Of a stretch of 64,000 bases of DNA, positions 41,008-63,541 are shown in pieces. The stretch is from contig NZ_JACOFW010000006.1 in the NCBI RefSeq assembly GCF_014284305.1, forward strand, positions 1 through 64,000, in the 5' to 3' direction. A model generated the notes under the pieces. That model was not told where the DNA came from, made no database searches, and was given only the letters and a program-made list of their open reading frames with translations. The position numbers and the translations under genes are program-made. The stretch's first letter is position 1. Each line of letters opens with the position of its first letter. Source of the stretch: Affinundibacterium seohonense (GTDB taxonomy: Bacteria; Pseudomonadota; Gammaproteobacteria; Burkholderiales; Burkholderiaceae_D).

Positions 41008-41496
41008 TTATGCCAAAGGTGCTAGCCAGCACATTTGCAAGAATAAACTATCCTCGCTGATTTGTTTGAATCCGCATTTTTTATACAGATCAACGGCACG
41101 GTGATTAGAACACATGACCGATAAACTGATCGATAAATGATGGTGATCAGCAAAATTTTGCATTGCACGTAAAATTTGCTGAGCGATACCCTGCGACCTT
41201 GCCGTCACTGAAATCGCTAGATCCACCAAACGTAAATCGTTTTGCCCCATGTCAGTCACGATACGCCCAATCGATTGCCCATTTCGAGTGATCAACCATG
41301 ATTGCGATTGAGGATAACGCTGCTGCAGACCCTGTAGATGGATCGTCAATTGCATCTGCATCAGCTGCTGAAAAATTTCTGGTTGCGTCGCTAAAGCATA
41401 TAAATCTTCACGGCTTTCACAGTACAACTGCTCCAAAAACATTCTATCCTGTGGAGACTCTGGGCGTATGCCCAATGGCGCTAGCAAATCCAACAC
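41008..41496 (-). CDS. GNAT family acetyltransferase
   Basis: This 162-residue N-acetyltransferase-fold protein has the acetyl-CoA binding region VDLAISVTARSQGIAQQIL near residue 95 and the C-terminal NHRAVDLYKKCGFKQ typical of the family. It shares layout and motifs (IGRI, LRLVDL) with the GNAT at 61385, including placement next to DUF6916 and collar genes. The substrate is unknown. GGAGTGAA precedes the ATG. Confidence 0.87.
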   Translation of the reverse strand: MLDLLAPLGIRPESPQDRMFLEQLYCESREDLYALATQPEIFQQLMQMQLTIHLQGLQQRYPQSQSWLITRNGQSIGRIVTDMGQNDLRLVDLAISVTARSQGIAQQILRAMQNFADHHHLSISLSVMCSNHRAVDLYKKCGFKQISEDSLFLQMCWLAPLA

Positions 41497-41688
41497 ATTT
41501 CACTCCAACGATCGACACAAAAGAGCTTACTAACGCAAGTTTCATTCCATCAGCATTTGGCATGCGATTTGCTGACTATAGTTAGGCCAAAATCAGGCCA
41601 AACCAGTTTTAAACATGCGGGCGCTTCAAAATTTTGCTAGCATGCATAATTTTTCATCTACACCAATTGGAAATACTGAGGATTACGA

Positions 41689-42006
41689 ATGTCATTTACT
41701 TTTGAAAAAGCGCAGTCATTAATCGGCAGCAGTTTTATCGTGCACACTTCGGTCGGCACTGTCGAACTACGTCTTATTGAAACCGAGGAAATGCCTCGAC
41801 ACAACACTCCTTCACAGTTCCGCACGCCTTTTGTGCTCATTTTTTCTGCTCCTGCAACACCAATTCTGTCACAAGATAATTACTACATCGACCATCCTGA
41901 ACTAGATCGCCAGTTTTGGACCTTAGCCGCAGTCATACCGCCGTCACAAGCTCCCATTACTGTTGATAATGTGCCGCTACTTTATTATCAAGCGCTATTT
42001 AATTAA
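41689..42006 (+). CDS. DUF6916 family protein
   Basis: This 105-residue protein has no signal peptide. It shows the pattern of this small family: FTFEKAQSLIGSSFIVHT, VELRLIETEEMPR, FVLIFSAPATPILSQDNYYI, DHPELDRQFWTLAAVIPP, and the C-terminal YYQALFN that recurs as YQAIFN and YEVVFG in the copies at 60566 and 60900. These proteins are often encoded with collar-domain proteins. The function is unknown. It starts the plus-strand half of the locus. Confidence 0.8.
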   Translation: MSFTFEKAQSLIGSSFIVHTSVGTVELRLIETEEMPRHNTPSQFRTPFVLIFSAPATPILSQDNYYIDHPELDRQFWTLAAVIPPSQAPITVDNVPLLYYQALFN

Positions 42007-42058
42007 ACAAAGACCATAAATGTATTTCAACGGCATGTAAATTCTTAACATGTGAAAT

Positions 42059-42068
42059 GTAAATTTAC
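42059..42068. promoter_or_regulatory. GTAAATTTAC palindrome
   Basis: This perfect 10-bp palindrome lies upstream of the first sulfotransferase. Variants of the same GTAAAT...ATTTAC dyad occur at 50459 and 60421 in the other two intergenic regions of the locus, suggesting a shared regulatory site. Confidence 0.35.
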
Positions 42069-42080
42069 ACGTAAAGTATG

Positions 42081-42110
42081 TGATCAAGTCGCAAACACCT
42101 AACTTGATCA
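42081..42110. promoter_or_regulatory. 9-bp inverted repeat upstream of the first module
   Basis: TGATCAAGT (42081-42089) and ACTTGATCA (42102-42110) are perfect arms with a 12-base spacer. The centre-to-centre distance of 21 bases suits a dimeric regulator on one DNA face. No T-run follows, so a terminator is unlikely. The rest of the 42007-42275 gap shows no gene. Confidence 0.4.
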
Positions 42111-42275
42111 GTCATCGATCCACTATGAGTGCATCATGACAGGGGATCAGGCGTAAAAATTGCTTATATTCTTCCGTTTAAGCACTAAGAATACATTCAG
42201 AGGATTTGTGAAGATCTTTATAGCATTGCCTGATGTAAGCAGCATTACTGTTTTTATCTAACACCACAATTATTA

Positions 42276-43124
42276 ATGTCAACTAACTACCATTTTATTT
42301 CCGGCCTACCTCGTTCTGGCTCGACGCTATTGGCAGCGATTTTATGTCAGAACCCGAATTTTTATGCTGGTATCAGTAGTCCCGTTGGCGGTTTTATGAA
42401 CTCTATCCTTGCCCAAGTGAGCGCAGGTAGTGAGTTTGCGTCGCAAGTCGACAATGTGCAGAGAAAAGACTTACTCACCGGCTTATTCAACGCTTACTAC
42501 AAAAAAGAACAAAATAAACGTGTCGTATTTGATACCAATCGTATGTGGTGCGCCAAATTACCAACCATACTTGATCTGTTTCCGCAGTCAAAAGTGATCG
42601 CCTGTGTTCGTAATGTCGCTTGGGTAATGGACAGCATAGAGCGCCAATTTCGCAGCAATCCCTACGAAAACACCAAGCTATTTGGCAACAATATGTCACG
42701 CAGCACGGTCTACCAACGTCTCGAAGGATTGGCGCAACATGATCAATTAGTCGGTTTCGCCTGGGCCGGATTACGTGAGGCATTTTATGGTGAGCACGCT
42801 AAATCCCTACTCGTCATTGACTACGAATTACTCGCTCAAGCACCGCAAAAAGTGATTCCACTCATTTATGATTTTCTAGGCGAACCGCAGTTCACACATG
42901 ACTTTGATCAACTCTCCTTCGACGCCCCTGATTTTGATCTACAACTCGGACTGCCGGGTCTGCACAAAGTACGGCCCAAAGTGGAATTGACAGAACGCCA
43001 GACGATCATTCCACCCGATCTATTTGAGAAGTACGCAAAAATGAGCTTTTGGAATACCCCAAGCCCAAGTTCCGCCAATGTAATTGCCCCAAAAACCAAT
43101 GTGAAGGAAACCAAGCATGACTAA
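42276..43124 (+). CDS. Sulfotransferase family protein, copy 1
   Basis: This 282-residue enzyme has the PAPS-binding loop FISGLPRSGSTLLAAIL (residues 8-24), the 3'-phosphate segment VIACVRNVAWVMDSIERQ with Arg and Ser (near residue 110), and a C-terminal SLLVIDYELLAQAPQKVIPLIYDFLG typical of sulfotransferases. Such enzymes transfer sulfate from PAPS to hydroxyls on proteins, sugars or small molecules. The last 8 bases overlap the start of the giant gene, so the two proteins are translationally coupled, and the giant protein or its glycan is a candidate substrate. There is no clear ribosome site. Confidence 0.87.
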   Translation: MSTNYHFISGLPRSGSTLLAAILCQNPNFYAGISSPVGGFMNSILAQVSAGSEFASQVDNVQRKDLLTGLFNAYYKKEQNKRVVFDTNRMWCAKLPTILDLFPQSKVIACVRNVAWVMDSIERQFRSNPYENTKLFGNNMSRSTVYQRLEGLAQHDQLVGFAWAGLREAFYGEHAKSLLVIDYELLAQAPQKVIPLIYDFLGEPQFTHDFDQLSFDAPDFDLQLGLPGLHKVRPKVELTERQTIIPPDLFEKYAKMSFWNTPSPSSANVIAPKTNVKETKHD

Positions 43125-46100
43125 GTTTACAATCAACGACAAAACTGGCTTGTATATCCGCCCAGCCTATCAAGAATTGTCCGATGCATTTGAACCATTC
43201 GGTTCCGATTCGATTGGCCAACCGGCGCATAACAGCCCGCCAACCGAAAGTGCTAAACGAGAAATCGTTTTTATCGAAGATAATGTTCGCAATATCTCAG
43301 CTTTGCGTGAAGCCATCGGGGCTGGCAAAGAGATTCACATCCTCGATTCCACGCGAGATGGATTGCAGCAAATTGCGCAAATTCTTGCAGGCCAAACTGG
43401 TATTGATGCTTTACATTTGATCTCACATGGCAAAGCCGCCTCCATCAATTTAGGCGCCTTGATTCTGGACCAAAGCACGATCGATGCACACGCAAGCGAA
43501 CTCGCTTCAATCGGTGCAAGCCTGAACCAAAACGCCGATATCTTGTTATACGGCTGCGAGGTTGGCGCTAATCAAGGCACAGCCTTACTGAATCGCCTTG
43601 CCAGTCTGACCGGCGCTGATATCGCAGCCTCGAATGATTTGACTGGCAGTATCAAGTTTGCTGCGGATTGGGATCTGGAAATTAGCACCGGCAATATTGA
43701 AGCGAGCAATATCAGTAATCCACAGTTAGCTGCAACTTATCTTGATGTGCTCAATATTAATTCCGCGTTAATCACCTTCGACAACGGAACAGGTGTCTTT
43801 ACGGATGTCGGTGGTTATGCCAACGCCGGACAAAATGTCGCGTATCAAATACTAGATGCTGATCCTAATTATGTTTTGCGGATTGATGGCCTCAATCAAG
43901 GTATTAATCGAGACCCCGGAAACTATGTGACCATAGACTTTAACGCCACAAATACGGAAACGCGGGTAGATTTTACTTTTGCAGCAGGCCAAATTTTTGA
44001 TGCTGACAGCTTAGAGATCTGGAATCAAACAAGCTCACCAACGCAGAATCTGACATTTATTGGATTGGATGCGAGCGATAATCAAATCGTCACGCAAAAT
44101 TTCACGATTCTCTCTGGAGCTTTCGTCGCAACGCCAATCACTTTAACAGGTTTCGACGGAATTAAGACTTTGCGAATAGTGGAAACTGGTGGCGGGAACA
44201 TATATTATATGAATCTCGATCAAATTGCCTTATCGAATATTCGACCACCAGATACCACTCCGCCAACCGTCACCATCAGCGTATCGGATACGGCAGTCAA
44301 GGTGGGCGATACTCCAACAGTAACCTTCACGTTTTCCGAAGCGGTCACTGGCTTCAGCAATGCAGATGTGACGAGTATTCCAAATGGTAATTTAAGTGCC
44401 GTCAGCAGCAGCGACGGCGGTATCACTTACACGGCGACATTTACCCCCAATGCTGGCGTCGAAGATGCTAGCAATCTGTTCACGGTTAATATGACTGGCG
44501 TCGCCGATGCCGCTGCAAATGTGGGTGTCGGTAGCACCAATTCGAATAACTTTTCGATAGACACACAACGCCCGGGTGTCACCGTCACACTGGCAGATTC
44601 CAATTTGACCGCTGGCGAGACAACTACGGCAACGTTCACGTTCACTGAAATCGTTTCGGGCTTTACTCTGGCCGACATTACCGCGAGCGGAAGTGGATCT
44701 TTAGGCGCACTCTCCACTTCGGACAATATCACTTATACGGCAACTTTCACACCAACTGCCAGTACCAATGACGCTACCAATGTGATTACCGTCGATAAAA
44801 CCGGTGTGACGGATGCAGCGGCCAACGCCGGTAGTGGCAGTAGCAGTTCAGCCAATTACACGGTTAATACAGTACGCCCAACCGTCACGGTCAACGTCAG
44901 CGATACCGCACTTCAGATTGGCGACACCTCGCTCGTCACGTTCACTTTTTCAGAGGCGGTCACCGGTTTTACGAATGCGGATTTGAGTATTGCGAATGGT
45001 AGCTTGACTGCCGTCAGTTCTGGCGATGGCATCACGTGGACAGCGACTTTCACACCGACCTTATCAATCACCGATACCACTAATATCATCACGGTCACCA
45101 ATTCCGGCTATACCAGTATTGCCAGCGGCAATACTGGTAGCGGCACCACCAACTCCAACAATTACGCCATTGATACGGAACGTCCAGTCTTGAGTATTAG
45201 TCTGGCCGACAGTAATTTAATCTTCGGTGAATCATCACTGGTGACCTTCAACTTCACAGAAGCCGTCACAAGCTTCGATAACACCGATATCACTGGGATT
45301 CCGAATGGCAGTTTAAGCGCCGTATCAAGTAGCAATGGCGGTATCACCTGGACTGCGACCTATACGCCGAATGCTAGTCTGCAAGACGCTTCCAATGTGA
45401 TCACTGTCGATATGACGACGCTCACCGATCTCGCTGGCAATGCTGGGTTAGGAACCACAGATACGGGTAATTTCGCTATTGATACTTTGCGTCCCGATGT
45501 CGCCATTACCCTCAGTGATACGACCCTGTCTGCTGGCGAAACGACCACTGTCACTTTTACCTTTACCGAAGCGGTATCCGGCTTTACTAATGCCGATATT
45601 ACCGTCGAGGGTGGAACCTTAGGTACGCTCTCGACTGTCGACAACGTCGTCTATACCGCGACCTTTACGCCTACCGCCTCGCTGTTGGATAGCACCAATG
45701 TCATCACCGTCGACAAGACTGGCGTCACCGATACGGCTGGTAATGTCGGCAGTGGTAGTAGTAGCTCTGCCAATTACATCGTCTCGACCGTGGGTCCTAC
45801 GGTGAGCGCGACGTTTAGTGATACCGCGCTAGTAATTGGCGATACCGCTGTCGTTACTTTCACTTTCTCTGAAGCCGTTACTGGTTTTAGCAACGCCGAT
45901 CTAAATGTCGTCAATGGCAATTTGTCTGCCGTTGGCACTAGCGATGGCGGCATCACCTGGACAGCCAACTTTACCCCCGATGTGAGTGTAGCCGACGCGA
46001 CCAACGTCATTACCATTACCAATAGCGGTTATACCAGTGTTGCTAGCGGCAATGCCGGTAGTGGCACCACCGATTCGGCTAACTATGCGATTGATACCGT

Positions 46101-49100
46101 ACGTCCGACTGCAACGATCGTGGTAGCGGATAATTCTTTGCTAGCCGGTGAGACGTCTTTAGTCACAATCACGTTCAATGAAGCGGTGACTAATTTCAGC
46201 AATGCCGATCTGACCATTGCTAACGGTACTTTGAGTGTGGTATCTAGCGGCGATGGTGGCATTACTTGGACGGCGACGCTGACACCGACTACCTCAGTCT
46301 CTGATACGACCAATCTCATTACGCTCGACAACACGACACTGAACGATCTGGCTGGCAATGCTGGAACCGGCACCACCGATTCGAATAATTATGCGGTGCA
46401 AACAGTACGTCCAACGGTCTCAGTGACCGTTGGCGATACCGCGCTGCAAATCGGTGATACCCCCACAGTGACCTTTACTTTCTCCGAAGCCGTCACTGGC
46501 TTTACCAATGCCGATTTAACGATTGCCAATGGAACGTTGTCGCCCGTTGGCAGTAGCGATGGCGGTATCACTTGGACTGCGACATTGACGCCAACATTGA
46601 GTATCGAAGATACCAGCAATCTCATTACCGTGACCAATACCGGGTACGCCAATGCGGTTGGCAATACCGGTACAGGTAGTACTAATTCCAATAATTACGC
46701 GGTCGATACCCTGCGTCCTACCGCTACCATTGTGGTCGCGGATAACGCCTTAAAAGCGGGCGAAACTTCATTGGTCACCATCACGTTTAGTGAGGCGGTC
46801 ACCGGTTTTGATAATAGCGATTTGACCGTTGCGAATGGTAGTTTGACAGCGGTGGGTAGCAGCGATGGTGGCATCACCTGGACAGCAACACTGACTCCAA
46901 CAGTGAGTATCGAAGACACGACCAATCTCATCAATCTCAATAACATTGGTGTCACCGATGCTGCGGGCAATACAGGAAGCGGCACGACTGATTCGAATAA
47001 CTACGCTATCGATACTTTGAGTCCAACTGTGTCCATCGGCGTCAGTGACACCGCTTTAAAAACCGGGGACACCGCGACCGTGACGTTCACCTTCTCGGAA
47101 GCCGTGACGAATTTCACAAATGCGGATGTTAGCTTCCCTAACGGCGCTTTAGGCCCTGTGTCATCTGGCGACGGCGGTACGACTTGGACAGCGACTTTCA
47201 CGCCTAGTGCGGATATCGAAGACAGCAGCAATGTGATCAGTGTCGCTTTAGCTGGTTTGACCGATTTAGCCGGAAATGCTGGTACCGGTACCAGCACGAG
47301 TTCTAACTATGCGATTGATACGCTTCGCCCGAGTATCATTGACATCGCCCTCACCGACGCAAGTTTAACAGTAGGTGAGACCGCCATCCTCAGTCTCAAT
47401 TTCACTGAAGCAGTATCAGGATTGACCATTGGTGATATCACCGTCGACAACGCGGTTCCTTCTGCCCTCTCAACACCGGATGGCGGCACCACATGGAATT
47501 TCACAGTCACACCCAATGCCTCTGCCACCAACTTAGCAAGCTTTGTCCATGTCAACTATGCCAACGTGACCGATACCGCAGGCAATGTCGGCGTCGGTAT
47601 CGGTAACTTCGGTAGCTTCGTCATCGATACCGCACGCCCTGCCTTAGTTGGCTCTGTCACGGTCTCAGATAATGCCTTAAAAATCGGTGATACCTCGACC
47701 GTTAGTTTCGCTTTTACCGAAGCCGTCACCAATCTGACCAGTGCCGATCTGTCGACGCCGAATGGCTCGATCTCGAATCTGAACAGCGCCGATGGCGGTA
47801 TCACTTGGACTGCGACTTTGACACCGTCAATCAGTGTGTCTGACTCCACCAATGTGGTGACTTTAGATCTGACGACCATCACCGATTTGCGTGGCAATGC
47901 AGGCCTGGGAACATCCTCTAGTTCGAACTATGCGGTCGATACGGTACGTCCTGCCCTCGCCTCAGCCATCACCTTCTCCGATAGTGCGCTTGCCATCGGT
48001 GAAACCGCCACCATCGGGTTCACGTTCACCGAGGCCGTTACTGGCTTCACGACTGCCGATATCCTCAGCCCCAATGGCGTCTTATCGAACTTGATTACTG
48101 GCGACGGCGGCATCACCTGGACCGCCACTTTTACGCCAAGTCCAAGCACCTACAGTGCCACCAATATCTTGACACTCGATTACACTGGCATAGTCGATTT
48201 GGCGGGCAATGCTGGTTCAGGCACAGCGACATCCTCAAACTATGTCGTTGATACCGTACGTCCAACACTCGCTAGTGCGATGGCGATCTCCGATGCTGCG
48301 TTGAAAATCGGCGATACCGCAACCGTGACTTTCACCTTTACCGAGGCAGTGACGAATTTCACCACCGCGGATGTGACTGTCGAGAATGGGGTTTTGTCGA
48401 ATTTGAGTACGGCAAATAGCGGCATTACGTGGACCGCGACACTGACGCCAAATGCTAGCGTAACTGACACTAGTAATATCCTGACACTCGATTACACCGG
48501 CATCACCGATCTGGCGGGGAATGCGGGCACTGGTAGCGTCACTTCTGGCAATTACACGATTGATACGGTACGTCCTACTGTTAGCAGCAACATGAGTTTC
48601 GCTGATAGTGCCTTAGTCATTGGGGATACCTCGTTGATGACGATCGTCTTCTCTGAAGCCGTCACGGGTTTATCGACTGCCGATTTCACTGTCGCTAACG
48701 GCGCACTCTCCGCCTTATCCTCAAGCGACGGCGGCATCACTTGGACTGCCACACTGACACCGAACGCTAGTGTCAGCGATACGACCAATACCATAAGCCT
48801 CGACAACACCAGCTATACCGATCTCAATGGCAATGCTGGTACTGGCACCACCGTCAGTCCTAACTATACGATTGATACCTTACGGCCAACCGCGACCATC
48901 ACACTGTCTGACAATGATCTCAGTTTAATCGATACCGCTCTGGTGACTTTTACGTTCAGTGAGCCTGTCATTGGTTTTACTAACGCCGATCTAACTTTAC
49001 CTGTTACTACGCCGATGGGTGCGCTCTCCCCTGTCAGCTCTAGTGACGGTGGGCTCACTTGGACAGCGACCTATACGCCACCGTTTGGGGTGTTTGACGC

Positions 49101-50298: not shown

Positions 50299-50319
50299 TG
50301 TTGCATTATCTGAAGTAGG

Positions 50320-51593: not shown

Positions 51594-51595
51594 TA

Positions 51596-54500: not shown

Positions 54501-57500
54501 ACACCGTCATCACGGGAGGCGACACTAAAGATATTGTCAACAACTTCATTACCGTCAGTAACGTTGCGGTGCCAACGATTACTTCCGCCACTTACAATGC
54601 CAGCACGGGTAATTTAGTGGTCACTGGAACGGGTTTCACTCACCTGAATAATGGCGGAACGGACGACATCATCGCCAACAAATTCACCATCACTGGCGAA
54701 GGTGGCTCGACCTATACGTTGACCAACACAGCAAACGTAGAGATCACCTCCGGGACGGCGTTCACCTTGGTTCTAAGCGCAACCGACAAATCCGCCCTCA
54801 ATCAAATCGTCAATAAAAGCGGTTCCAGCTCCACCGGTGGTTCCACTTATAACTTGGCAGCTGCAGAAGATTGGGCGGCTGGTGCGGATGCGGCAGTTGT
54901 CGTTGCTGACACGATCGGTGATGGTATTACTGCTACAGTCACGCCTCCCGCCATCACCTCAGCGACTTATGATGCAGGCACGGGTACACTGGTTGTCACT
55001 GGCTCGGGATTTACTCATCGTGCAGGCGCGACCAACGATATTATCGCCAATACGTTTACGCTGACTGGTCAAGGTGGCAGCACCTATTCGTTGACTGATA
55101 CGGCAAATGTCGAAATCAATTCTGATAGCAGTTTCACATTAGTACTATCATCGACAGACAAAGCAGGATTGCGCACGCTACTCAACAACAATGGCTCCCA
55201 ATCCTCAGGCGGTACGACTTACAATTTAGCTGCTGCAGATAATTGGGCAAACGGTGCAGATTCAACGCTCAATATTGCCGATGCTAGCGGCAACACAATT
55301 ACGGTATCAAATGTGGTATCGCCAACGATTACTTCAGCCAGTTACGATGCCAGTACAGGGATTTTGTCAGTCACTGGCGCGAACATGGTCAATGGCGATT
55401 CAATTGATGTCTCTAAACTGTCTGTTACTGGCGAAGGTGGAGCTTATACCCTAACTAGTGCAGGAGTTAACGCAAGTAGCGCAACTGCTTTTTCTGTCAC
55501 ACTTAACGCGACAGACAAACTCGCAATCAATGGTATTCTCAACAATGACGGTACATCTTCCGTTAATGCAGCGACATTCAATTTAGCTGCAGCAGCAGGT
55601 TGGAATACGACGGTCAATACCACTGCTGATTTAACGGGCAACGGCATCACTGTCTCCAACGTCACCGCACCAACGATTACCTCAGCGACCTACGATGGCA
55701 CGAGCCGTGTCTTCGTCATCACAGGTGAAAATCTGGTGAAGACGATTGGTGCTAATAATGACATTACCATCTCTGCTCTAACCATTACTGGCGAAGGCGG
55801 TGCAACACGCACATTATCGACAACTGGCAATGTTGAAGTCACGTCTGCAACGAGCTTCACTTTTACGATAGCGGGTGCGGATATTGTTGCTGTGAACTCT
55901 TTACTCAATAAAAATGGTACGTCTTCAGCTAGTAGCAGTACCAACTACAACCTCGCTGTCGCAGACAACTGGAATAGCGTCGTCACTGGTGGCAATATTC
56001 AGGACTTGACTGGCAATGGCATTACTGTCGCTAACGCTGCACCAAGTATCCTCAGCTCAACCTATGATGCAGCAACGGGAATTCTATCTGTCTCCGCTGT
56101 GAATATCGTTAGCGGTGACACGATTGATGTGTCTAAACTTTCCATTACTGGTCAAGCAGGTTCATATACCTTAACCACTGCACCAGTGACTGCTAGCAGC
56201 TCCACTGCATTCTCCGTCACGCTCAACGCAGCTGACAAACTCGCAATCAACGGCATTCTCAATAACAATGGAACTTCCGCTGTTAGCACCACGACTTATA
56301 ATCTTTCCGCTGCAACCAACTGGAATCAAACCACCGCCTCCGGTGCCGACACAACTGGTAACGCAATCACAGTATCGAATGTCACCGCACCGACGATTAC
56401 CTCAGCGACTTACAATGGCACAAGTCATGTGTTTGTGGTGACTGGTACGAATCTAGTGAAGACTATCGGTGCAACCAATGACGTGACGATTTCTGCTTTA
56501 ACCATCACTGGCGAAGGCGGTGCAACACATACTTTATCTACCACTGGCAATGTCGAAGTCACCTCAGACAATAGCTTTACGTTCACCTTAGCGGGTGCCG
56601 ATATCGCCGCTGTAGATTCTTTGCTCAATAAAAATGGTACATCGTCGGCTAGCAGCAGTACTACCTATAACCTTGCTGTCGCCGATGACTGGAATAGCGT
56701 CGTCACTGGTGGCAATATTCAGGACTTGACTGGCAATGGCATTACTGTCACTAACGCTGCACCAAGCATCATTAGTTCGACTTACAATGCAGCAACTGGC
56801 GTATTAACTGTCTCCGCTGTCAATATCGTTGCTGCCGACAACATCGACGTCTCCAAACTATCGATCACTGGTGAGGGAGGATCTTATACATTAACAACGG
56901 CTGGTGTTACCGCAACTAGTGCGACTGAATTCTCGGTCACGCTCAATGCAGCCGATAAACTTGCCATTAACGGTATCCTCAATAACAATGGCACATCGGC
57001 AGTCAGTGCCGCGACGTTTAATCTTTCTGCTGCCGCCAACTGGGATTCAAGCAGAGCATCTGGCGCCGACACCACAGACAACGCCATCACGGTCTCTAAC
57101 GTTACCGCACCAAGCATTACCTCTGCAACCTACGATTTCACCACGCATGTATTGACCGTCACAGGCACAGGTTTGGTCGGTACTCTGGGGGCGACGAATG
57201 ACATCACCGTCGATGCCCTCACTATCACAGGTGAAGGTGGTGCTACTCGTGCTTTGATGACAACGGGTAATGTCGAAGTACTTTCCGATACCAGCTTTGC
57301 CATTACCTTAGCTGGTGCTGATCAAGCGGCAGTGGAAGCCTTGTTTACAAAAAATGGTTTGACCTCGACTAACGGCACTAGCTACAACCTCGCCGCTGCC
57401 GATGATTGGAATAGCGTCATCACTGGCGGCAATATCGCTGATGCGACCTCGCCGATTACAGTGGCGAATGTGCCTGTTCCGACCATCACCTCTTCAGTTT

Positions 57501-60262
57501 ATAACGCGAGTACCGGTGCGCTGGTCGTCACAGGAACAGGCTTTCGTGGTGCATTCGGTGCGAACAACGATATCGTCGCCAATAAGTTCAGCCTGCAAGG
57601 TGAAGGCGGTGCTAGCTATACGCTCACGAACACCAGCAACGTCGAGATCAATTCAACCACCTCCTTCACGCTGACATTGAGTGCTGCCGATCGTTTAGGT
57701 GCGAATCTGATCATGAATAAGAATGGCACCAGCTCCACCAGTGTCAATACTTACAATCTGGTCGCGAACGAAGACTGGAATACCGGGGCTGATGCCGCTG
57801 TCGTCATTGCTGATCTGACCGGCAATGGGGTCACTGTTTCGAACGTAGTGGCGCCAACGGTCTCATCTGCCACTTACAACGTCGCTACTGGGGTACTGGT
57901 CGTCACAGGCAATAACTTCCTGTCGCTGACAGGCGCCAACAATGACATTACCGCCAATAGGATTCGCTTCCTAGGGCAAGATGCTATCAACTACACCCTG
58001 ACTAATACCCCCAACATCGACATCACCTCCAACACCAGCTTCACCATGACCATGAGTGTCGCCGACAAGGCGCAACTGGCACTGAGGTTCAACAAGAATG
58101 GTACATCCTCCACCGATTTAACAACTTATAATATCGGTATGCTCGAAGACTGGAATACGGGTGCTGCCACCGCTGTCGTGATCGCTGATCTGTTTGGCAA
58201 TTTCATCACTGTCTCAGGTGTCAATCCAACGACATCCATCACTGCGTCAAGCTTCTCTGCTGACGCAGGCACGTCCTCAAGTGATTTCATTACGAATACA
58301 GCCGCGCAAACGATCTCCGGTACGCTCAGTGCCAATTTGCTCCTAGGCGAATCGGTAGAAGTATCGACCAATAATGGCGGTTCGTGGACAACAGCAAGCG
58401 CCACCGTTGGCCAAAGTACTTGGTCGCTGGCAGGAGCTACTTTATCGAATGGCACAAGCAATTTCAAAGTACGTGTCGTTGATTCCTATGCGAACTCAGG
58501 TCCTGAGTATAGCCAAAGTTATACCTTAGAAACCGTACGTCCTACCGTTGTCACCAATATGAGCTTTACGGATAACGTGTTAGCGATCGGTGACACGGCG
58601 ACCATGTCATTGAGTTTCTCTGAAGCGGTAAGTGACTTAACGATCGCTGATTTCACGGTTCCAAACGGCGTGCTTTCTAACCTCACCAGCAGCGATGGTG
58701 GTATCACTTGGACCGCAACCTTGACGCCCAATGCCGGTGTCAATGATGCGACCAATACCATCACTCTCGATAACACGGCCTATATCGACGTTGCTGGCAA
58801 TACCGGGACTGGCACCACCATCAGTGCCAATTATGCAATCGATACCTTGAGACCGACCGCGACGATCACGATGTCAGATATCGATCTTGGTGTACCCGAT
58901 ACTGCCTTGGTGACCTTTACCTTTAGCGAGCCTGTCACTGGCTTCACAAACGATGATCTAACTCTGCCTGTGACCGCGCCAATGGGCACATTATCTCCGG
59001 TTAGCTCAAGTGACGGTGGATTGACTTGGACAGCGACCTATACGCCGCCATTCGGTTTATTGGATACCAGCAATTTGATTACCTTAAACACCGCTGGCGT
59101 CATCGATGGCTTGGGCAATCCCGGCTTAGGTTTGATCAATTCCCCTAATTTTACGATCAATACCGTAAATATCGCGCCAAGCTTGGGCGGGATCACACCG
59201 GGATTGAGCACCACCGACTCCATGCGCATCGTGCCGTTTGCCAGCGTTACCGTCACCGATCCTGATATTGGCGCACTGGAAACGGCGACTATTGGCATAG
59301 ACAATCCTGTCAAAGGTAGTTTTACCTCCAATTCATTGGCCTTAAGCGGCTTTTATACCAATGATGGCGGTATCACTTATGTGCATGACGCTGCTTCACC
59401 AACTGTGATGCAGGCAGCGATTCGCGCACTGGTTTTTGAACCGAATCCCTCTCGTTTATCAATCGGCACAAGTGATGTCACCACCTTCACCATTGTGGTC
59501 CGCGATCAGTATTTGGACTCGGTATCCAATAGCAGTACCACCCTCACGATCAGCAATGTGAATTCAGCACCGACCGACATCTTATTGTCTGACGCGATTG
59601 TTTCGCAGTCGGAAGGCGCTAATGCGATTGTCGGTACACTGTCAGCCGTCGATAAAAACATCGGCGACACGCATACGTTTAGCTTAGCGGCATCGAATGC
59701 CTTCAACGACAACACCAAGTTCACACTGGTTGGAAATAGTTTGAAAGTGATCAATCCTGCCTCGATGACAGAAAAGGATTACTTTGTCGCGGTGCAAGTG
59801 ACAGACGCGAATGGTCTTAGCTTTACCAAGAAACTGACTGTGAGTTTGGACGATGATATTGCGCCATACATCACGTCGATCGAGACCTTACGTTCACCAC
59901 GACCAACGATCACAACGGGTAGCTATATTGTGAAGTTCAACGAGAGCGTCACTGGGGTGAGCATCGATGACTTCTTCCTCACGTCTAGCGCTGGCACCAC
60001 GGCGCATTTGAGTTCCGTCACCGCACTGACTGGCAATGCGTATCGCGTTTATTTCGATCAAATCGTTGGCACTGGGGTGTTGAATCTGAACTTGAAAACC
60101 TCTGGCACTGGCATTAGTGATTTGTTTGGAAATAGTTTGCCAAGCGCTGTTCCATTGGCGCCGATTTCAGCGATATCTCTGGCAGACACACAAACTGCTG
60201 AGCTGATCCCACATGTCTCGGTCGTTGGCGTACAGCAAGGCCAAGATTTTATCGTGATGTGA
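51596..60262 (+). CDS. Giant DUF4347/beta-helix/repeat surface protein, copy 2 (2888 aa)
   Basis: ATG 51596 is used (AGGA upstream); the DUF4347 dyad then falls at His104 (HIMSHGG) and Cys147 (LLYGCDVA), exactly as in copy 1. Residues ~205-625 form a right-handed beta-helix-like region rich in NSTISNNT-type turns ending GAYEF, and an Ig-like domain lies at ~635-745. Twelve repeats of about 122 residues (~748-2207, each starting like PTITSATYDASTGILSVTG) follow, then an Ig-like domain, two Ig repeats of the copy 1 type, and a C-terminal region almost identical to copy 1, ending QDFIVM. No signal peptide is seen. A secreted adhesin or cell-cell factor is inferred. Confidence 0.88.
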   Translation: MNTTTTQQNHRALDTSIDSDASSAPLSSSAVSVSATQTAPKPTTTVAHEIVFVDTTLPNWQSLIKDIKPGTEIITLDPLKNGVQQIADALQGKAGITAVHIMSHGGEGYLVMGNTMVSSHNLVDYQSSFAKIRAALSSDADILLYGCDVAKGEVGAHFVSQLAQITGADIAASTNDTGVSGDWVLEYQSGAVETNVVAASEYGFDLATIKVTNLNDSGAGSLRAAITSATGNAAADTIVFDPALFASGAATLTLTSGALNVHGDGDLDAFTIIGPGENLLTISGNNASRVFMADNQIVPAVGTAGQPGYVPPVYAANTSSLSLSGMTLTNATSAGARDSAGGGAILSYYSGNLTLDHVVVKNSTAGGGGGGLKFGGDNGNLVINTSTFDSNSISAGGANGTGGGIAAFAQSHSITISNSTISNNTNTTGFYGGGAFLGGVGSTVTVTNTTIAGNSAGSGNIQAGGGGGIIIQSPSVVITNSTIVNNAWNGGNAPNNGGGGLSLFNGGAAILRNNIIANNTSTNTVMTDTDVIVTHSGSMSGTGNLIPTAVGLNYTATNTTTSTQTSLGSALGPLAFNGGPVKTIAVAAGSNAIGNGTITGAPTTDARGVGRGGTVDIGAYEFSDDNTFDFTGVVSPNRGAIDVPSNYNLSIEFGTAVTAVAAKNIVIYRQSDNAVLETIAATDTGKVTFSSGTGGTNSQVTINPTATLVSNTGYYVLIDSGAFQDGSSNTYDGISSNSTWTFTSAAVPTSITSATYDANTGVLVVTGTDITNGGTIDVTKLSLTGQGGSYTLTAATSNPTASSATSFTVTLGAADKIAVNGVLNNNGTTSVTGGVTFNLAAAANWDVTAAASADLTGNGVTVSNVAAPTLESATYDANTGTLIVTGTNLVKAIGSNNDITASKISIRGEGNVTYVLTDTADVDITSATSFTLILSAADKAGLNQYINKDGTLPTSASSLYLVKGADDWNTVITGGDTKDIVNNFITVSNVAVPTITSATYNASTGNLVVTGTGFTHLNNGGTDDIIANKFTITGEGGSTYTLTNTANVEITSGTAFTLVLSATDKSALNQIVNKSGSSSTGGSTYNLAAAEDWAAGADAAVVVADTIGDGITATVTPPAITSATYDAGTGTLVVTGSGFTHRAGATNDIIANTFTLTGQGGSTYSLTDTANVEINSDSSFTLVLSSTDKAGLRTLLNNNGSQSSGGTTYNLAAADNWANGADSTLNIADASGNTITVSNVVSPTITSASYDASTGILSVTGANMVNGDSIDVSKLSVTGEGGAYTLTSAGVNASSATAFSVTLNATDKLAINGILNNDGTSSVNAATFNLAAAAGWNTTVNTTADLTGNGITVSNVTAPTITSATYDGTSRVFVITGENLVKTIGANNDITISALTITGEGGATRTLSTTGNVEVTSATSFTFTIAGADIVAVNSLLNKNGTSSASSSTNYNLAVADNWNSVVTGGNIQDLTGNGITVANAAPSILSSTYDAATGILSVSAVNIVSGDTIDVSKLSITGQAGSYTLTTAPVTASSSTAFSVTLNAADKLAINGILNNNGTSAVSTTTYNLSAATNWNQTTASGADTTGNAITVSNVTAPTITSATYNGTSHVFVVTGTNLVKTIGATNDVTISALTITGEGGATHTLSTTGNVEVTSDNSFTFTLAGADIAAVDSLLNKNGTSSASSSTTYNLAVADDWNSVVTGGNIQDLTGNGITVTNAAPSIISSTYNAATGVLTVSAVNIVAADNIDVSKLSITGEGGSYTLTTAGVTATSATEFSVTLNAADKLAINGILNNNGTSAVSAATFNLSAAANWDSSRASGADTTDNAITVSNVTAPSITSATYDFTTHVLTVTGTGLVGTLGATNDITVDALTITGEGGATRALMTTGNVEVLSDTSFAITLAGADQAAVEALFTKNGLTSTNGTSYNLAAADDWNSVITGGNIADATSPITVANVPVPTITSSVYNASTGALVVTGTGFRGAFGANNDIVANKFSLQGEGGASYTLTNTSNVEINSTTSFTLTLSAADRLGANLIMNKNGTSSTSVNTYNLVANEDWNTGADAAVVIADLTGNGVTVSNVVAPTVSSATYNVATGVLVVTGNNFLSLTGANNDITANRIRFLGQDAINYTLTNTPNIDITSNTSFTMTMSVADKAQLALRFNKNGTSSTDLTTYNIGMLEDWNTGAATAVVIADLFGNFITVSGVNPTTSITASSFSADAGTSSSDFITNTAAQTISGTLSANLLLGESVEVSTNNGGSWTTASATVGQSTWSLAGATLSNGTSNFKVRVVDSYANSGPEYSQSYTLETVRPTVVTNMSFTDNVLAIGDTATMSLSFSEAVSDLTIADFTVPNGVLSNLTSSDGGITWTATLTPNAGVNDATNTITLDNTAYIDVAGNTGTGTTISANYAIDTLRPTATITMSDIDLGVPDTALVTFTFSEPVTGFTNDDLTLPVTAPMGTLSPVSSSDGGLTWTATYTPPFGLLDTSNLITLNTAGVIDGLGNPGLGLINSPNFTINTVNIAPSLGGITPGLSTTDSMRIVPFASVTVTDPDIGALETATIGIDNPVKGSFTSNSLALSGFYTNDGGITYVHDAASPTVMQAAIRALVFEPNPSRLSIGTSDVTTFTIVVRDQYLDSVSNSSTTLTISNVNSAPTDILLSDAIVSQSEGANAIVGTLSAVDKNIGDTHTFSLAASNAFNDNTKFTLVGNSLKVINPASMTEKDYFVAVQVTDANGLSFTKKLTVSLDDDIAPYITSIETLRSPRPTITTGSYIVKFNESVTGVSIDDFFLTSSAGTTAHLSSVTALTGNAYRVYFDQIVGTGVLNLNLKTSGTGISDLFGNSLPSAVPLAPISAISLADTQTAELIPHVSVVGVQQGQDFIVM
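53838..58214 (+). repeat. Array of 12 coding repeats (~365 bp each)
   Basis: Twelve units of ~122 residues alternate between short forms with DIDVSKLSITG and long forms with NDITISALTITGEGG. Two consecutive two-unit blocks are nearly identical at 720-base spacing: 55971-56046 and 56691-56766 match at all but one base, which indicates a recent internal duplication. Confidence 0.88.
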
Positions 60263-60283
60263 TGTTGCATTATCTGAAATAGG

Positions 60284-60314
60284 CGAGCGGTCAGTCATTG
60301 ACCGCTCGTTTTTT
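60284..60314 (+). terminator. Rho-independent terminator of giant gene 2
   Basis: CGAGCGGTCA (60284-60293) pairs with TGACCGCTCG (60299-60308), followed by six T. It has the same stem and position relative to the stop codon as the terminator at 50320. Confidence 0.93.
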
Positions 60315-60420
60315 AAATTTGCCGAGCCACATGAAAAGATAAAAAACCTCTCTTTAAAAGAAGCACAATTAACATCAACAAACCTAGATATCGTTAAATT
60401 ATTGCCATAGAGAATGTAAA

Positions 60421-60438
60421 GTAAATATAACTATTTAC
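60421..60438. promoter_or_regulatory. GTAAAT-ATTTAC dyad, copy in second module gap
   Basis: This is identical to the dyad at 50459. It is followed by TTTACATGTAAA (60463-60474), a 12-bp palindrome. Both lie upstream of the promoter at 60507. Confidence 0.5.
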
Positions 60439-60506
60439 CTTTCAATCATTTTTCTAAAAGGCTTTACATGTAAAGTGAAATTTCCTTTAAAAACATATAG
60501 TTACAC

Positions 60507-60535
60507 TTGACTGCAATCAACTTTCACAATAAGAT
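60507..60535 (+). promoter_or_regulatory. Sigma70-like promoter of the DUF6916-collar gene group
   Basis: TTGACT (60507-60512) and TAAGAT (60530-60535) are spaced by 17 bases and sit about 30 bases before the DUF6916 ATG. The boxes are conserved with the gap before the second sulfotransferase. Confidence 0.5.
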
Positions 60536-60565
60536 TAGCGCCAATTTGTTTCTTTGATAATTACG

Positions 60566-60874
60566 ATGACATTACCAACACATCAAGCCTTTTCTGACAA
60601 CTTAGGTAGCGGTTTTCAAGTACAAGTTAGCCATGAATTACATGAAACTTTAGTGCTGAGATCCATCTCCGATTTAGGTGTGAGTCCAGCAAGTACGCCG
60701 ACGCATCCGAAGGAACAGTTTTCGCTCATTTTCGAGGCCGAAAATGCGAACTATTATCCGCAGCAAATCTATGGTTTTGATCATCCGGTAATCGGGCAAT
60801 TTGACTTATTTATCGTCCCAATTGGCCCCGACAACGTCAGTAAGAATATGTGCTATCAAGCCATATTCAATTAA
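60566..60874 (+). CDS. DUF6916 family protein, intact copy
   Basis: This protein of about 102 residues begins MTLPTHQAFSDNLGSGFQV. It has FSLIFEAENANYYPQQIY, a GFDHPVIGQFDLFIVPIGP segment and the C-terminal CYQAIFN, matching the pattern of the copy at 41689. The ATG is chosen over an in-frame TTG 12 bases upstream because the duplicated remnant at 50604 begins at the same place. It starts the group DUF6916, Tat-DUF6916, GNAT and three collar genes, all closely spaced. Confidence 0.82.
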   Translation: MTLPTHQAFSDNLGSGFQVQVSHELHETLVLRSISDLGVSPASTPTHPKEQFSLIFEAENANYYPQQIYGFDHPVIGQFDLFIVPIGPDNVSKNMCYQAIFN

Positions 60875-60899
60875 TTTTTGAACAGAATGGAGTCTTAAG

Positions 60900-61367
60900 A
60901 TGCCAAACAAGCAGAATCTGGCGCGTCGTAGTTTTCTTTTGTATGGCGGTGCACTAGCGCTCACCTCAGTGACCGCGTCTACGTCCTTAGCGACAGCCCT
61001 ACTTGAGCACGAGGTGTTGCCAAGTTGCGTCACTGATTTCAGTCACACTGACCATCTATGCTTACGTGAATTTAGCTTGCAAGATTTCACTCATTTGCTG
61101 GGACAACAATTTTCAGTCGGTGCAGGGAAGCAACAAGTGCGTATGCAATTGTTCAAAGCCACATCGTATGTAGTCCGTGATGATGCACGTCCAAGCCATG
61201 TTCGCAGTGAGCCCTTTAGTTTGGTGTTTGTAGCACCGCAAGACTTAAATTTACATGCTGACATCTATGATCTACGACATCCTCAAATTGGCGGCATGAA
61301 AGTCATGATGACAAAGATAGGACAAGCTGAGGCGGGTAAGTCGCGCTATGAAGTGGTTTTCGGTTAA
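60900..61367 (+). CDS. Exported DUF6916 family protein with Tat-type signal
   Basis: This 155-residue protein begins with a twin-arginine-like leader, ARRSFLLYGGALALTSVTA, and then carries a DUF6916 domain: FTHLLGQQFSVGAG, PFSLVFVAPQDLNLHADIY, DLRHPQIGGMKVMMTKIG and the ending RYEVVFG. Export through the Tat route implies folding in the cytoplasm. The other two intact copies have no leader, so the family in this locus has cytoplasmic and exported members. GGAGTCTTAAG precedes the ATG. Confidence 0.82.
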   Translation: MPNKQNLARRSFLLYGGALALTSVTASTSLATALLEHEVLPSCVTDFSHTDHLCLREFSLQDFTHLLGQQFSVGAGKQQVRMQLFKATSYVVRDDARPSHVRSEPFSLVFVAPQDLNLHADIYDLRHPQIGGMKVMMTKIGQAEAGKSRYEVVFG

Positions 61368-61384
61368 ATCTTTTGAGATCAACG

Positions 61385-61933
61385 ATGACGAACACTCTCA
61401 ATTCGATTTCGCTGCGTCCGATTGCTGAAACGGACATGCCTGTGTTACGCGAAATTTACTATGCATCACGCGCAGAGGAAATGACTTTTTTTCCTTTCAA
61501 TGATGAGCAGAAGTTGCAGTTTTTGGCTTCACAATTTGATGCCCAACATAGTCATTATCAAGCCTACTATGGACAAGCGCAGTACGATTGTGTGTTGCTA
61601 GATTCTACTGTGATTGGCCGTCTATATGTCGACCGTGGTGCTGAGGATATGCGTATTATTGATATCAATATTTTGCCTGCCTACTGCAATCGTGGCATAG
61701 GCACTTTTTTGCTACAACAATTAATCGCAGAAGCAGACGCTAAACAACTTAGCCTGAGTGCCCATGTAGAACATAACAATCCGGCACGCCGTTTATATGC
61801 CCGTCTAGGCTTCGATGAAGTCGAGAATCGTGAAGTGTACATTTTCATCGTCAGGCAAAGTGCAAATACGAAGCCTGCTCAGGCATCGAACCAAACCAAG
61901 TTAGCTGACAAGGTCAGCTCGACCGCATTTTAA
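61385..61933 (+). CDS. GNAT family acetyltransferase, second copy
   Basis: This protein of about 182 residues has the acetyl-CoA loop INILPAYCNRGIGTFLLQQL near residue 100 and NPARRLYARLGFDEVE near the C-terminus. It shares the IGRLYVDRG and MRIIDIN pattern with the GNAT at 41008 and, like it, lies next to DUF6916 and collar genes. The ATG at 61385 follows GAGATCAACG; a TTG 12 bases upstream is possible. The substrate is unknown. Confidence 0.87.
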   Translation: MTNTLNSISLRPIAETDMPVLREIYYASRAEEMTFFPFNDEQKLQFLASQFDAQHSHYQAYYGQAQYDCVLLDSTVIGRLYVDRGAEDMRIIDINILPAYCNRGIGTFLLQQLIAEADAKQLSLSAHVEHNNPARRLYARLGFDEVENREVYIFIVRQSANTKPAQASNQTKLADKVSSTAF

Positions 61934-61942
61934 GGAGATACT

Positions 61943-62470
61943 ATGTCAGAAGCATTTATCGGAGAGACCCGAATTTTTGGTTTCGATTTCCCACCGAAAT
62001 ACTGGGCACATTGCAATGGACAAATCATGTCGATTCAGCAGAACACCGCGCTATTTTCTTTATTGGGAACTTACTATGGTGGCAATGGAACGACAACTTT
62101 TGCCTTACCAAATTTACAGGGACGCACACCAATTCATTTCGGGAGCAACTCTGGCAGCACTTACCAACTAGCTCAGGCGGGTGGTACAGCAACACACACG
62201 TTAAACACCAACGAAATCCCAAGCCATCAACATCTGGTCAATGCCTCTAACAAACGCGCAAACCTGATTAGTCCAGCAAATGCTAGCGTGGGTCAATCAG
62301 CAACCCCGATGTTCTCGGATGGCACACCCGGCAGCGTATATGAAGCGGTGACTAGTGGCGCGCCCATTACCAGTAATGCCGGCAATTCGCTAGCGCATCA
62401 AAACATGCAGCCTTATTTAGCTTTAAATATTTGCATTGCCCTGCAGGGCATTTTTCCTTCACGTAACTAA
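61943..62470 (+). CDS. Tail-collar domain protein, tandem copy 1
   Basis: This 175-residue protein opens with EAFIGETRIFGFDFPPKYWA and continues with the collar-domain pattern HCNGQIMSIQQNTALFSLLG, YYGGNGTTTFALPNLQGRTP. A variable middle region and the C-terminus ALNICIALQGIFPSRN follow. AAGGAGATACT precedes the ATG, nine bases after the GNAT stop. Collar proteins probably form trimers. Their role outside phage tails is unknown. Confidence 0.87.
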   Translation: MSEAFIGETRIFGFDFPPKYWAHCNGQIMSIQQNTALFSLLGTYYGGNGTTTFALPNLQGRTPIHFGSNSGSTYQLAQAGGTATHTLNTNEIPSHQHLVNASNKRANLISPANASVGQSATPMFSDGTPGSVYEAVTSGAPITSNAGNSLAHQNMQPYLALNICIALQGIFPSRN

Positions 62471-62482
62471 TAGGTATAGAAA

Positions 62483-63004
62483 ATGGCTGACCCATTTATT
62501 GGTGAGATCCGAATGTTTGCTGGCAATTTTGCGCCGCGCAGTTGGATGTTTTGCAATGGCCAACTACTTTCCATTGCAGAATATACTACTTTATTCGCGT
62601 TGATAGGCACGACCTACGGGGGTGATGGACAGACAACGTACGCCCTGCCAGATCTGCGCGGAAGAATACCCCTGCATAGGGATTCCAATTATCCGCTTGG
62701 TTCGGAGGGTGGTCAGGAGATGGTGACCTTAAATTCGACTCAGCTACCCGCGCATAGCCATGCTTTTGGTACTTTAGCGGCAACGGCTTCGGCCCCGAAC
62801 GGCAATGCCACGCATACCACGCCGATCGGCAACCGCTTTGCTGGCGGTGCGATCAAGGCTTACGCAACAGGCGGACCAACAGTTGCTATGAACAATGCGG
62901 TGATGACGGCTGCGGGCGGAAGTCAAGCGCACGACAATCTCATGCCCTACTTGGCAATCAACTTCATTATTTGCTTAGAGGGAATTTTCCCGAGTCGAAA
63001 TTAA
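62483..63004 (+). CDS. Tail-collar domain protein, tandem copy 2
   Basis: This 173-residue paralogue begins ADPFIGEIRMFAGNFAPRSW and has MFCNGQLLSIAEYTTLFALI, YGGDGQTTYALPDLRGRIP and the C-terminal INFIICLEGIFPSRN. The central region after VTLNSTQLPAHSHAFGT differs most from its neighbours, as expected if that part contacts different partners. It follows copy 1 by 12 bases. Confidence 0.87.
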   Translation: MADPFIGEIRMFAGNFAPRSWMFCNGQLLSIAEYTTLFALIGTTYGGDGQTTYALPDLRGRIPLHRDSNYPLGSEGGQEMVTLNSTQLPAHSHAFGTLAATASAPNGNATHTTPIGNRFAGGAIKAYATGGPTVAMNNAVMTAAGGSQAHDNLMPYLAINFIICLEGIFPSRN

Positions 63005-63013
63005 GGCCCAATC

Positions 63014-63541
63014 ATGTCAGAACCTTTTATTGCAGAAATCCGTGCATTTGCCTTTAACTTTGCCCCACGTGGTTGGGCATATTGCCACGGACAAATAACC
63101 TCAATAGCACAAAACACTGCGCTTTTTTCCCTTCTTGGCACCACCTATGGAGGCAACGGCCAAACGACCTTTGCTTTACCAAATTTACAAGGCCGGGCAG
63201 TGATGCACGCGGGTCAGGGACCGGGTCTGTCTGACTACGCTCTGGGACAAACAGGCGGAACAGAAACCGTGACCTTAACCGCAAACCAAATGCCAAATCA
63301 CACTCACTCTATGGCCGCCATCAACGGCCCTGGTACGGCAAGCAATCCAGCGAATAACACTACGCTAGCAGTTGGCGCAAAAGGCGCTCCTTTGTATGCG
63401 CCAATGAGTGGAGCAACCGGTACCATGCACGCAAGTACAGCACTGCCGACCGGCGGTAACCAACCGCATAACAATATACAACCGTATTTAACGTTGAACT
63501 TTGCCATTGCGATGCTAGGTATTTTCCCTTCACGTAATTAA
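63014..63541 (+). CDS. Tail-collar domain protein, tandem copy 3
   Basis: This 175-residue paralogue has EPFIAEIRAFAFNFAPRGWA, YCHGQITSIAQNTALFSLLG, YGGNGQTTFALPNLQGRAV and the C-terminal LNFAIAMLGIFPSRN. It is most like copy 1. AAGGCCCAATC precedes the ATG. A change from CNG to CHG in the family Cys-Asn-Gly motif is noted. It ends the run of three collar genes. Confidence 0.87.
   Translation: MSEPFIAEIRAFAFNFAPRGWAYCHGQITSIAQNTALFSLLGTTYGGNGQTTFALPNLQGRAVMHAGQGPGLSDYALGQTGGTETVTLTANQMPNHTHSMAAINGPGTASNPANNTTLAVGAKGAPLYAPMSGATGTMHASTALPTGGNQPHNNIQPYLTLNFAIAMLGIFPSRN

Follow-up and report, generated by a model that had tools for sequence, protein, structure and literature searches.

Coupled sulfotransferase and DUF4347 giant protein genes in Affinundibacterium seohonense: a conserved unit and candidate sulfation system

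We analysed a stretch of 64,000 nucleotides of the Affinundibacterium seohonense genome (assembly GCF_014284305.1, contig NZ_JACOFW010000006.1, positions 1 to 64,000 of the forward strand), called the window hereafter. It harbours two modules arranged head-to-tail, each composed of a gene for a sulfotransferase (ST) that resembles the tyrosylprotein sulfotransferases (TPSTs) and a gene for a giant protein with a Pfam DUF4347 domain near its N-terminus. The four genes are as follows.

42276..43124, plus strand: sulfotransferase 1 (ST 1), TPST-like, of the Sulfotransfer_3 family, 282 aa (PF13469, E 9.8e-17)
43117..50298, plus strand: giant 1, 2393 aa, with DUF4347 at residues 50-212 (E 1.2e-48) and 16 Big_12 Ig-like stretches
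50745..51593, plus strand: second copy of the sulfotransferase, 282 aa (PF13469, E 1.1e-11), 59% identical to ST 1
51590..60262, plus strand: giant 2, 2890 aa from a TTG start (ATG at 51596), with DUF4347 at residues 52-201 (E 8.6e-50)

An 8-bp overlap joins the genes of ST 1 and giant 1. For module 2, the ST gene and the open reading frame (ORF) of giant 2 overlap by 4 bp if the TTG codon is the start, and are separated by 2 bp if the in-frame ATG at 51596 is used. Coordinates and Pfam matches thus bear out the two modules, with their 8-bp overlap and 2-bp gap, of a preliminary description made from the sequence alone. Giant 1 ends with a C-terminal module whose final residues are GVQQAQDFIVM. 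Giant 2 has a long repeat stalk and, by Pfam, 2 Big_12 stretches, and its last 450 aa are 87% identical to those of giant 1.

The conservation of this pair was assessed in 80 loci, which are the 80 best among 151 confirmed hits obtained with ST 1 as a single query, with one genome per species. All 80 STs show at least 59% identity, and 34 of the loci carry the title Pseudomonas. A DUF4347 ORF directly follows the ST gene on the same strand in 77 of the 80 loci. Many locus contigs end early: among the 77 linked DUF4347 ORFs, 59 could be followed for 1,000 aa or more, with lengths of as much as 3,333 aa, and 16 shorter ones are cut by the end of the locus. The other two are closed by a stop codon below this length, at 324 aa (L006) and 731 aa (L057). 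The gap between the two genes is at most 100 bp in 72 of the 77 pairs, and the overlap is exactly 4 bp in 20 of them, as measured on ORFs called from the first possible start codon. Sixteen genera are named across the 80 loci and 15 among the 77 linked ones, not counting a metagenome-assembled genome titled Klebsiella pneumoniae. In two of the three exceptions, the ST gene precedes a ShlB-type transporter gene and a giant with a two-partner secretion (TPS) domain rather than DUF4347 (L044), or the sequence ends 134 bp past the ST gene (L066); the third, L013, is discussed below. The order of ST then DUF4347 in 77 of 80 related loci argues that the pairing is more than chance.

The sequence distances of the two partners are also correlated, with a rho of 0.75 over 79 pairs and a permuted maximum of 0.17. 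Shared species history accounts for part of this correlation. For each of the three pairs fetched from the Acidovorax benzenivorans genome (L004, L059 and L112), the closest STs and the closest DUF4347 domains come from one and the same other locus or set of loci. Module 1 of the window likewise has similar neighbours by ST and by DUF4347. Congruence is not clear for module 2, the nearest STs and the nearest DUF4347 domains of which lie in different loci. The unity of ST and giant proposed in the preliminary description is therefore strongly supported, both by the 77 loci and by the way in which the two sets of distances track each other, and we conclude that this unit is real.

Viewed from the DUF4347 side, the association is rare. 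Two overlapping draws of genomes were searched, 200 at the order level and 369 at the class level, which differ in ST query and cut-off (a single protein at 1e-30 in one, a profile at 1e-15 in the other); with at most 6 candidates scored per genome, the class-level search may miss more distant STs. To judge adjacency, we used coordinates together with the loci L087, L121 and L122. An ST gene lies directly upstream of only 5 of 105 distinct DUF4347 matches, a set with a few weak matches and a few cases of two matches in a single frame. Furthermore, our ST profile detected no ST in the 6.4-8.1 kb upstream of 20 fetched loci, hand-picked among the 52 order-level DUF4347 matches as an ST-less comparison set. 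In one of the loci examined (L122:9478-14552), a DUF4347 protein is split across two overlapping ORFs.

The same draws contained nine STs, in five genomes, a small sample, all at loci that encode a giant or a long protein of exported type. Five of them are directly followed by DUF4347. At L123:1763-8050 (minus strand), a divergent ST directly precedes a TPS-domain giant of 1791 aa, and two tandem STs at L088:4164-13934 (minus strand) are flanked on one side by an ORF of at least 950 aa with an M10-peptidase domain and on the other by ABC, HlyD and TolC genes. The ninth is a third ST of the A. seohonense genome, described below. Thus, this ST keeps to giants and DUF4347 mostly occurs without it. 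As 100 of the 105 DUF4347 matches have no such ST, we rejected DUF4347 as the cause of the pairing. The neighbourhood check proposed earlier hence gives a positive answer when starting from the ST and a negative one when starting from DUF4347, and 'ST plus DUF4347 giant' as a definition of the system is at once too narrow, since it omits TPS-domain, M10-peptidase and RTX giants, and too broad, since most DUF4347 proteins do without the enzyme. The five cases in 105, together with one orphan ST, would suit a scenario in which surface genes are simply transferred together and the ST is functionally unrelated to the giant. We consider this very improbable in view of the direct same-strand pairs in 77 of 80 loci, 72 of them no more than 100 bp apart, of the congruent distances, including those of pairs within one genome, and of the fact that STs of one family accompany giants of both apparent export classes.

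Past the window, the array continues along the contig with four further giants in the same orientation, of which giants 3 to 5 have DUF4347 and giant 6 does not. Giants 3 to 6 lie at about 64.3, 71.1, 82.5 and 88.5 kb of the contig (G000:C120, about 64286-93845; L084:4286-18789 and L085:2488-13845). Giant 6 carries 12 Big_12 stretches. The 450-aa C-terminal module is common to all six giants, giant 6 included, at 60-87% identity. Five of the six end with tails close to GVQ...FIVM or FWM, which we take to resemble type I secretion signals. A genome search found three STs of this type, none of which adjoins giants 3 to 6; neither DUF4347, Big_12 nor the C-terminal module alone thus demands a neighbouring ST. 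The C-terminal module, common to six giants of which four have no adjacent ST, was rejected as the cause of the pairing. The third ST is found on another contig (C76), beside an adenosine 5'-phosphosulfate (APS) kinase gene and with an RTX/DUF4214 giant gene about 4.6 kb upstream. Its locus also harbours ABC, HlyD and TolC genes, identified with our own profiles, as well as glycosyltransferase and methyltransferase genes.

Both window STs belong to Sulfotransfer_3, with scores of 62.4 and 45.8 bits for a cut-off of 27, and they have the P-loop that binds the 5'-phosphosulfate (5'-PSB), in the stretch GLPRSGSTLL. All 51 STs in the alignment share R13, in the P-loop, and S120. Arg-11 and Ser-118 of RaxST of Xanthomonas are described as essential positions (PMC6637879); R13 and S120 may correspond to them. 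Human TPST1 and TPST2 are the best matches in the Protein Data Bank (PDB) of a profile headed by ST 1 (E 2e-6). In addition, the AlphaFold2 model of ST 1, with a confidence score (pLDDT) of 89, retrieves only TPSTs at Foldseek ranks 1-13 (E 8e-10), with template modelling (TM) scores of about 0.5-0.6. Among solved structures, the enzyme as modelled is therefore nearest to the tyrosylprotein sulfotransferases.

The gene neighbourhoods also point to sulfation. APS kinase makes 3'-phosphoadenosine 5'-phosphosulfate (PAPS), the sulfate donor. In the related loci, APS kinase, second sulfotransferase, GNAT, ABC and TolC genes were labelled using our own iterated profiles, checked in part with Pfam. 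An APS kinase ORF is present at any position in 31 of the 80 loci, and in 15 it lies directly upstream of the ST gene on the same strand. PF01583 was confirmed in five of five tested ORFs, four of them among the 31. Given this linkage, the unit is likely to carry out a sulfation. Of the sulfation role proposed at the outset, the chemistry thus gains support, from the APS kinase genes and from the likeness of the ST to TPSTs in profile and fold; the giant as its substrate is still a matter of inference.

The modules of the window are surrounded by the following genes.

39213..39893, minus strand: phage-tail-collar-domain protein, 226 aa (PF07484, E 2.2e-27)
40224..40940, minus strand: aspartyl/asparaginyl beta-hydroxylase-like protein (AspH), 238 aa (PF05118, E 6.5e-16)
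41008..41496, minus strand: GNAT-family protein, 162 aa (Pfam)
41689..42006, plus strand: DUF6916 protein, 105 aa, the next gene upstream of ST 1 (PF21880, E 2.9e-16)
60554..60874, plus strand: DUF6916 protein, 106 aa (Pfam)
60900..61367, plus strand: DUF6916 protein, 155 aa (Pfam)
61373..61933, plus strand: GNAT-family protein, 186 aa (Pfam)
61943..62470, plus strand: collar-domain protein, 175 aa (Pfam)
62483..63004, plus strand: collar-domain protein, 173 aa (Pfam)
63014..63541, plus strand: collar-like protein, 175 aa, assigned by likeness to its neighbours, with the same GIFPSRN end; seed of our collar profile
63620..64000, plus strand: lipoprotein-like ORF (N-terminus judged by eye), 196 aa in full, running past the window end, between the collar genes and giant 3

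Pfam confirms the DUF6916, GNAT and collar genes reported earlier around the modules, except for the collar ORF at 63014-63541, which was called by likeness. The AspH (40224-40940) and collar (39213-39893) genes, outside the limits set by the preliminary description, belong to the same set. A gene for a DUF4214 and S41-peptidase protein adjoins this cassette (36871-39045, minus strand). Elsewhere in the window, a chemotaxis cluster (14332-21864) codes for a CheA-like kinase, a methyl-accepting chemotaxis protein, CheR and CheB.

Over the 80 loci, collar genes were found in 48, GNAT genes in 45, AspH genes in 17, second sulfotransferase genes in 16 and DUF6916 genes in 8, counts that the early ends of many contigs may lower. 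For enrichment, we compared the 7 kb upstream in 67 loci with an ST and in the 20 ST-less DUF4347 loci; the latter come from the order of the window and half of the former are Pseudomonas, and the comparison was accordingly split by genus. Upstream in the loci with an ST, GNAT (43/67 versus 0/20), collar (44/67 versus 2/20) and APS kinase genes (19/67 versus 0/20) are enriched. Without Pseudomonas, the enrichment holds for APS kinase (17/34 versus 0/20, p 5e-5) and GNAT (12/34 versus 0/20, p 0.002), and it is marginal for the collar genes (12/34 versus 2/20, p 0.056). Within Pseudomonas, GNAT and collar genes are found upstream in 31 and 32 of 33 loci, respectively, and APS kinase genes in 2 of 33; in the Pseudomonas loci with enough sequence, the latter often lie behind the giant. 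Neither AspH (9/67 versus 0/20) nor DUF6916 genes (7/67 versus 0/20) are significantly enriched in any of these comparisons.

AspH is closely associated with a second sulfotransferase. Both are present in 15 of the 80 loci, and in 13 of these the two are fused (L014:7533-9101 and L028:8199-9884) or their genes overlap or adjoin (11 loci). Both fusions exceed the Pfam cut-off in their AspH part, and only L014 does so in its sulfotransferase part; of nine second-sulfotransferase ORFs submitted to Pfam, four pass, three score below the cut-off, including the L028 fusion, and two have no match. This association might mean that the ST sulfates the giant on a sugar chain or on a hydroxylated residue, with AspH or a glycosyltransferase making the acceptor hydroxyl and a sulfotransferase capping it. 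We find this rather improbable, as the fusion partner of AspH is the second sulfotransferase and not the giant-coupled ST, and as AspH is present in 17 of the 80 loci only, a count lowered where contigs end early.

Two types of giants are distinguished by the sequences that precede DUF4347, which are either short or contain an LEPR-xLFDGA motif. With a self-made expression that allows variants, 46 of the 77 linked giants are of the LEPR type and 31 are others. M50, GAF-HlyD or RND-type HlyD genes are near 38 of the 46 LEPR-type giants and none of the 31 others, in flanks of at most 10 kb, so that absences carry little weight. In the remaining linked loci, ABC genes are near one LEPR-type giant and four others. 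ABC genes were found in 5 of the 80 loci, and ABC, HlyD and TolC genes occur at the C76 locus of our genome (G000:C76) and in G037, according to our own profiles. From these neighbourhoods, the M50/GAF/RND-type and ABC gene sets may export the giants. In loci L018-L083, from Pseudomonas and relatives, the HlyD/GAF-HlyD/M50-HlyD set is a candidate exporter of LEPR-xLFDGA giants, and its M50 part resembles a daptide metalloprotease, below the cut-off. One result speaks against a tie of this exporter set to the ST: RND-type HlyD genes are commoner in ST-less (11/20) than in ST-containing loci (16/67, p 0.013) and are found upstream in only 1 of 34 ST-containing loci outside Pseudomonas, and M50 and GAF-HlyD genes do not differ significantly between the two sets within 7 kb upstream. 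That the same ST family goes with both kinds of giants fits a cytosolic modification before export, not an exporter-tied enzyme. Beside the window modules, our profiles recognised no type I secretion genes. An ABC/HlyD set at 30895-34125 was considered as exporter of the giants and is MacAB-like, so it was not assigned to them.

The predicted model of DUF4347 (pLDDT 92) has as its best fold match Tce1 (PDB 9qpe, TM 0.54), followed largely by caspases, with TM scores of about 0.4, and by some flavodoxins and others. H68 is conserved in at least 90% of 63 domains and C111 in all of them, and a profile alignment with 9qpe pairs the HG and YGC stretches. By these modest fold matches, DUF4347 would adopt a caspase-like fold with a conserved His and Cys and features of clan CD-like cysteine peptidases. 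A His/Cys protease dyad has been proposed for Tce1 (PMC13323088). DUF4347 may be a peptidase that processes its own giant.

In a search for acceptor residues, we found no shared tyrosine motif in either class of N-termini before DUF4347, and beyond DUF4347 the ST-linked giants are no richer in tyrosine (mean 1.83%, n=74) than the unlinked ones (2.30%, n=11). Y109, a conserved tyrosine of DUF4347, was rejected as a mark of ST linkage as it is kept equally without ST (0.97 versus 0.96). At the domain end, Y172 of the DUF4347 fragment is a tyrosine in 36 of 38 ST-linked and in 11 of 25 unlinked domains, with mostly Trp or Phe in the unlinked domains that lack it; the p value of 9e-6 is uncorrected and comes from a scan of five residue types over all columns, with no correction for relatedness. 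In the window genome, both ST-linked giants have a Tyr at this position, and the three unlinked ones have Tyr, Ala and Trp. The DUF4347-end tyrosine is therefore a candidate acceptor at most, encoded in giant 1 as follows.

43738..43740, plus strand: tyrosine codon at the DUF4347 end of giant 1, residue 208, selected post hoc

Taken together, these features make it probable, if not by much, that each module is a PAPS-fed sulfation unit dedicated to its co-encoded, exported giant, analogous to RaxST and RaxX. The ST would draw on PAPS, made by an APS kinase for which many related loci have a gene, and would sulfate the giant itself or a group that it carries, while still in the cytosol and prior to export. 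The giants of the window would leave by a type I system, as suggested by their DFIVM-like tails, and the LEPR-type giants of Pseudomonas and relatives via the M50/GAF-HlyD/RND-type HlyD set. The caspase-like DUF4347 domain may process the giant, its end tyrosine is a candidate acceptor, and AspH, the second sulfotransferase and the GNAT protein might be further modifying enzymes. Sulfation could serve surface charge, adhesion or binding specificity. More tentatively, and with somewhat less than even confidence, we propose a widespread and as yet undescribed proteobacterial surface pathway in which APS kinase, the coupled TPST-like ST, the AspH-sulfotransferase pair and GNAT sulfate and otherwise modify DUF4347 giants, possibly on the conserved domain-end tyrosine, with two exporters.

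A number of observations weigh against this dedicated-unit model. The ST of L013 is an orphan with no giant beside it, and giants 3 to 5, with DUF4347, and giant 6, with Big_12 and the C-terminal module, have no adjacent ST. Our profile detected no APS kinase in the window, the one that adjoins an ST being on contig C76. A glutamate of the GEETR motif is catalytic in TPSTs, and these glutamates are not kept in the STs, the profile alignment setting GMTSPV (in AGMTSPVG) opposite GEETRV. TPSTs prefer tyrosines in an acidic context, and such sites are not enriched in 63 giants, two of them not ST-linked (7 versus 14.8 expected by shuffling). As to the DUF4347-end tyrosine, the contrast was found post hoc, the unlinked domains are more distant relatives, and one unlinked DUF4347 giant of the window genome also has it.

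NodH, NoeE and lipopolysaccharide sulfotransferases sulfate glycans or lipids. Similarly, the ST might sulfate a surface glycan or lipid that the giant binds or sits on, the giant being its partner and not its substrate. The lack of enrichment of acidic tyrosine sites would agree with this, as would a weak match of the ST to the NCBIfam model of the nodulation sulfotransferase NoeE (25 bits for a cut-off of 500) and the glycosyltransferase and methyltransferase genes at the C76 ST locus. Nevertheless, the closest profile and fold relatives of the ST are protein-tyrosine sulfotransferases, its constant neighbour is a DUF4347 ORF with which it is co-inherited, and no glycan family was found among the commonest neighbour clusters inspected in the 80 loci. 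On these grounds we consider sulfation of a glycan or lipid unlikely, though a good deal less so than the capping of a hydroxyl on the giant, and favour the dedicated sulfation unit.

The RaxX-RaxST-RaxAB system of Xanthomonas, with RaxP/RaxQ, combines a sulfotransferase, a secreted substrate, type I secretion, ATP sulfurylase and APS kinase (PMC6637879, PMC4216712). The units described here resemble it in that a PAPS synthesis gene, for APS kinase, is found in 31 of 80 loci; the constant neighbour of their ST gene encodes a giant that is a candidate substrate. RaxST, too, was modelled on human TPST2 (same sources). Unlike RaxX, which derives from a 60-residue precursor, the candidate substrates here are giants of up to 3,333 aa with DUF4347. 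PMC6637879 also reports raxST homologues of about 40% identity in diverse contexts, presumes other substrates for them and assigns none. With human TPST1 and TPST2, its best profile and fold matches in the PDB, our ST shares the P-loop; it differs by the replaced GEETR glutamates (AGMTSPVG) and by giants with no enrichment of acidic Tyr sites.

Tce1 (PA0256) is described as a putative cysteine protease of the Pseudomonas aeruginosa H3 type VI secretion system (PDB 9qpe; PMC13323088, PMC8262886). It shares with the giants the DUF4347 domain and its conserved His and Cys, and it is the best match of the domain by both sequence and fold; unlike this 310-aa secretion cargo, DUF4347 forms here the N-terminus of a giant repeat protein. 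The gene arrangement also recalls HMW1C and HMW1A, a cytosolic modifying enzyme encoded beside a giant two-partner adhesin. HMW1C glycosylates its partner, whereas sulfation is predicted here, and two of the ST relatives adjoin TPS-domain giants.

We found no paper that joins DUF4347 with a sulfotransferase in the open-licence literature, a corpus that leaves out most subscription papers and all preprints, and this absence is weak evidence that the ST-giant unit is novel. In the same literature, sulfotransferases in connection with adhesins, type I secretion or protein sulfation led to RaxST and to work that seemed unrelated, and three or more of the protein families together led to nothing judged related. 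To our knowledge, RaxX is the only natural substrate identified so far for protein sulfation in bacteria. Our analyses tie TPST-fold enzymes, gene by gene, to one candidate substrate class in 15 named genera, which makes the question of what bacterial TPST-like enzymes modify directly testable on a single protein by mass spectrometry. They also give a context to DUF4347, a term rare in the open-licence literature. Sulfation may tune giant surface proteins; if so, these modules would stand for a sulfation machinery dedicated to giant proteins of the bacterial surface, an undescribed route of surface decoration.

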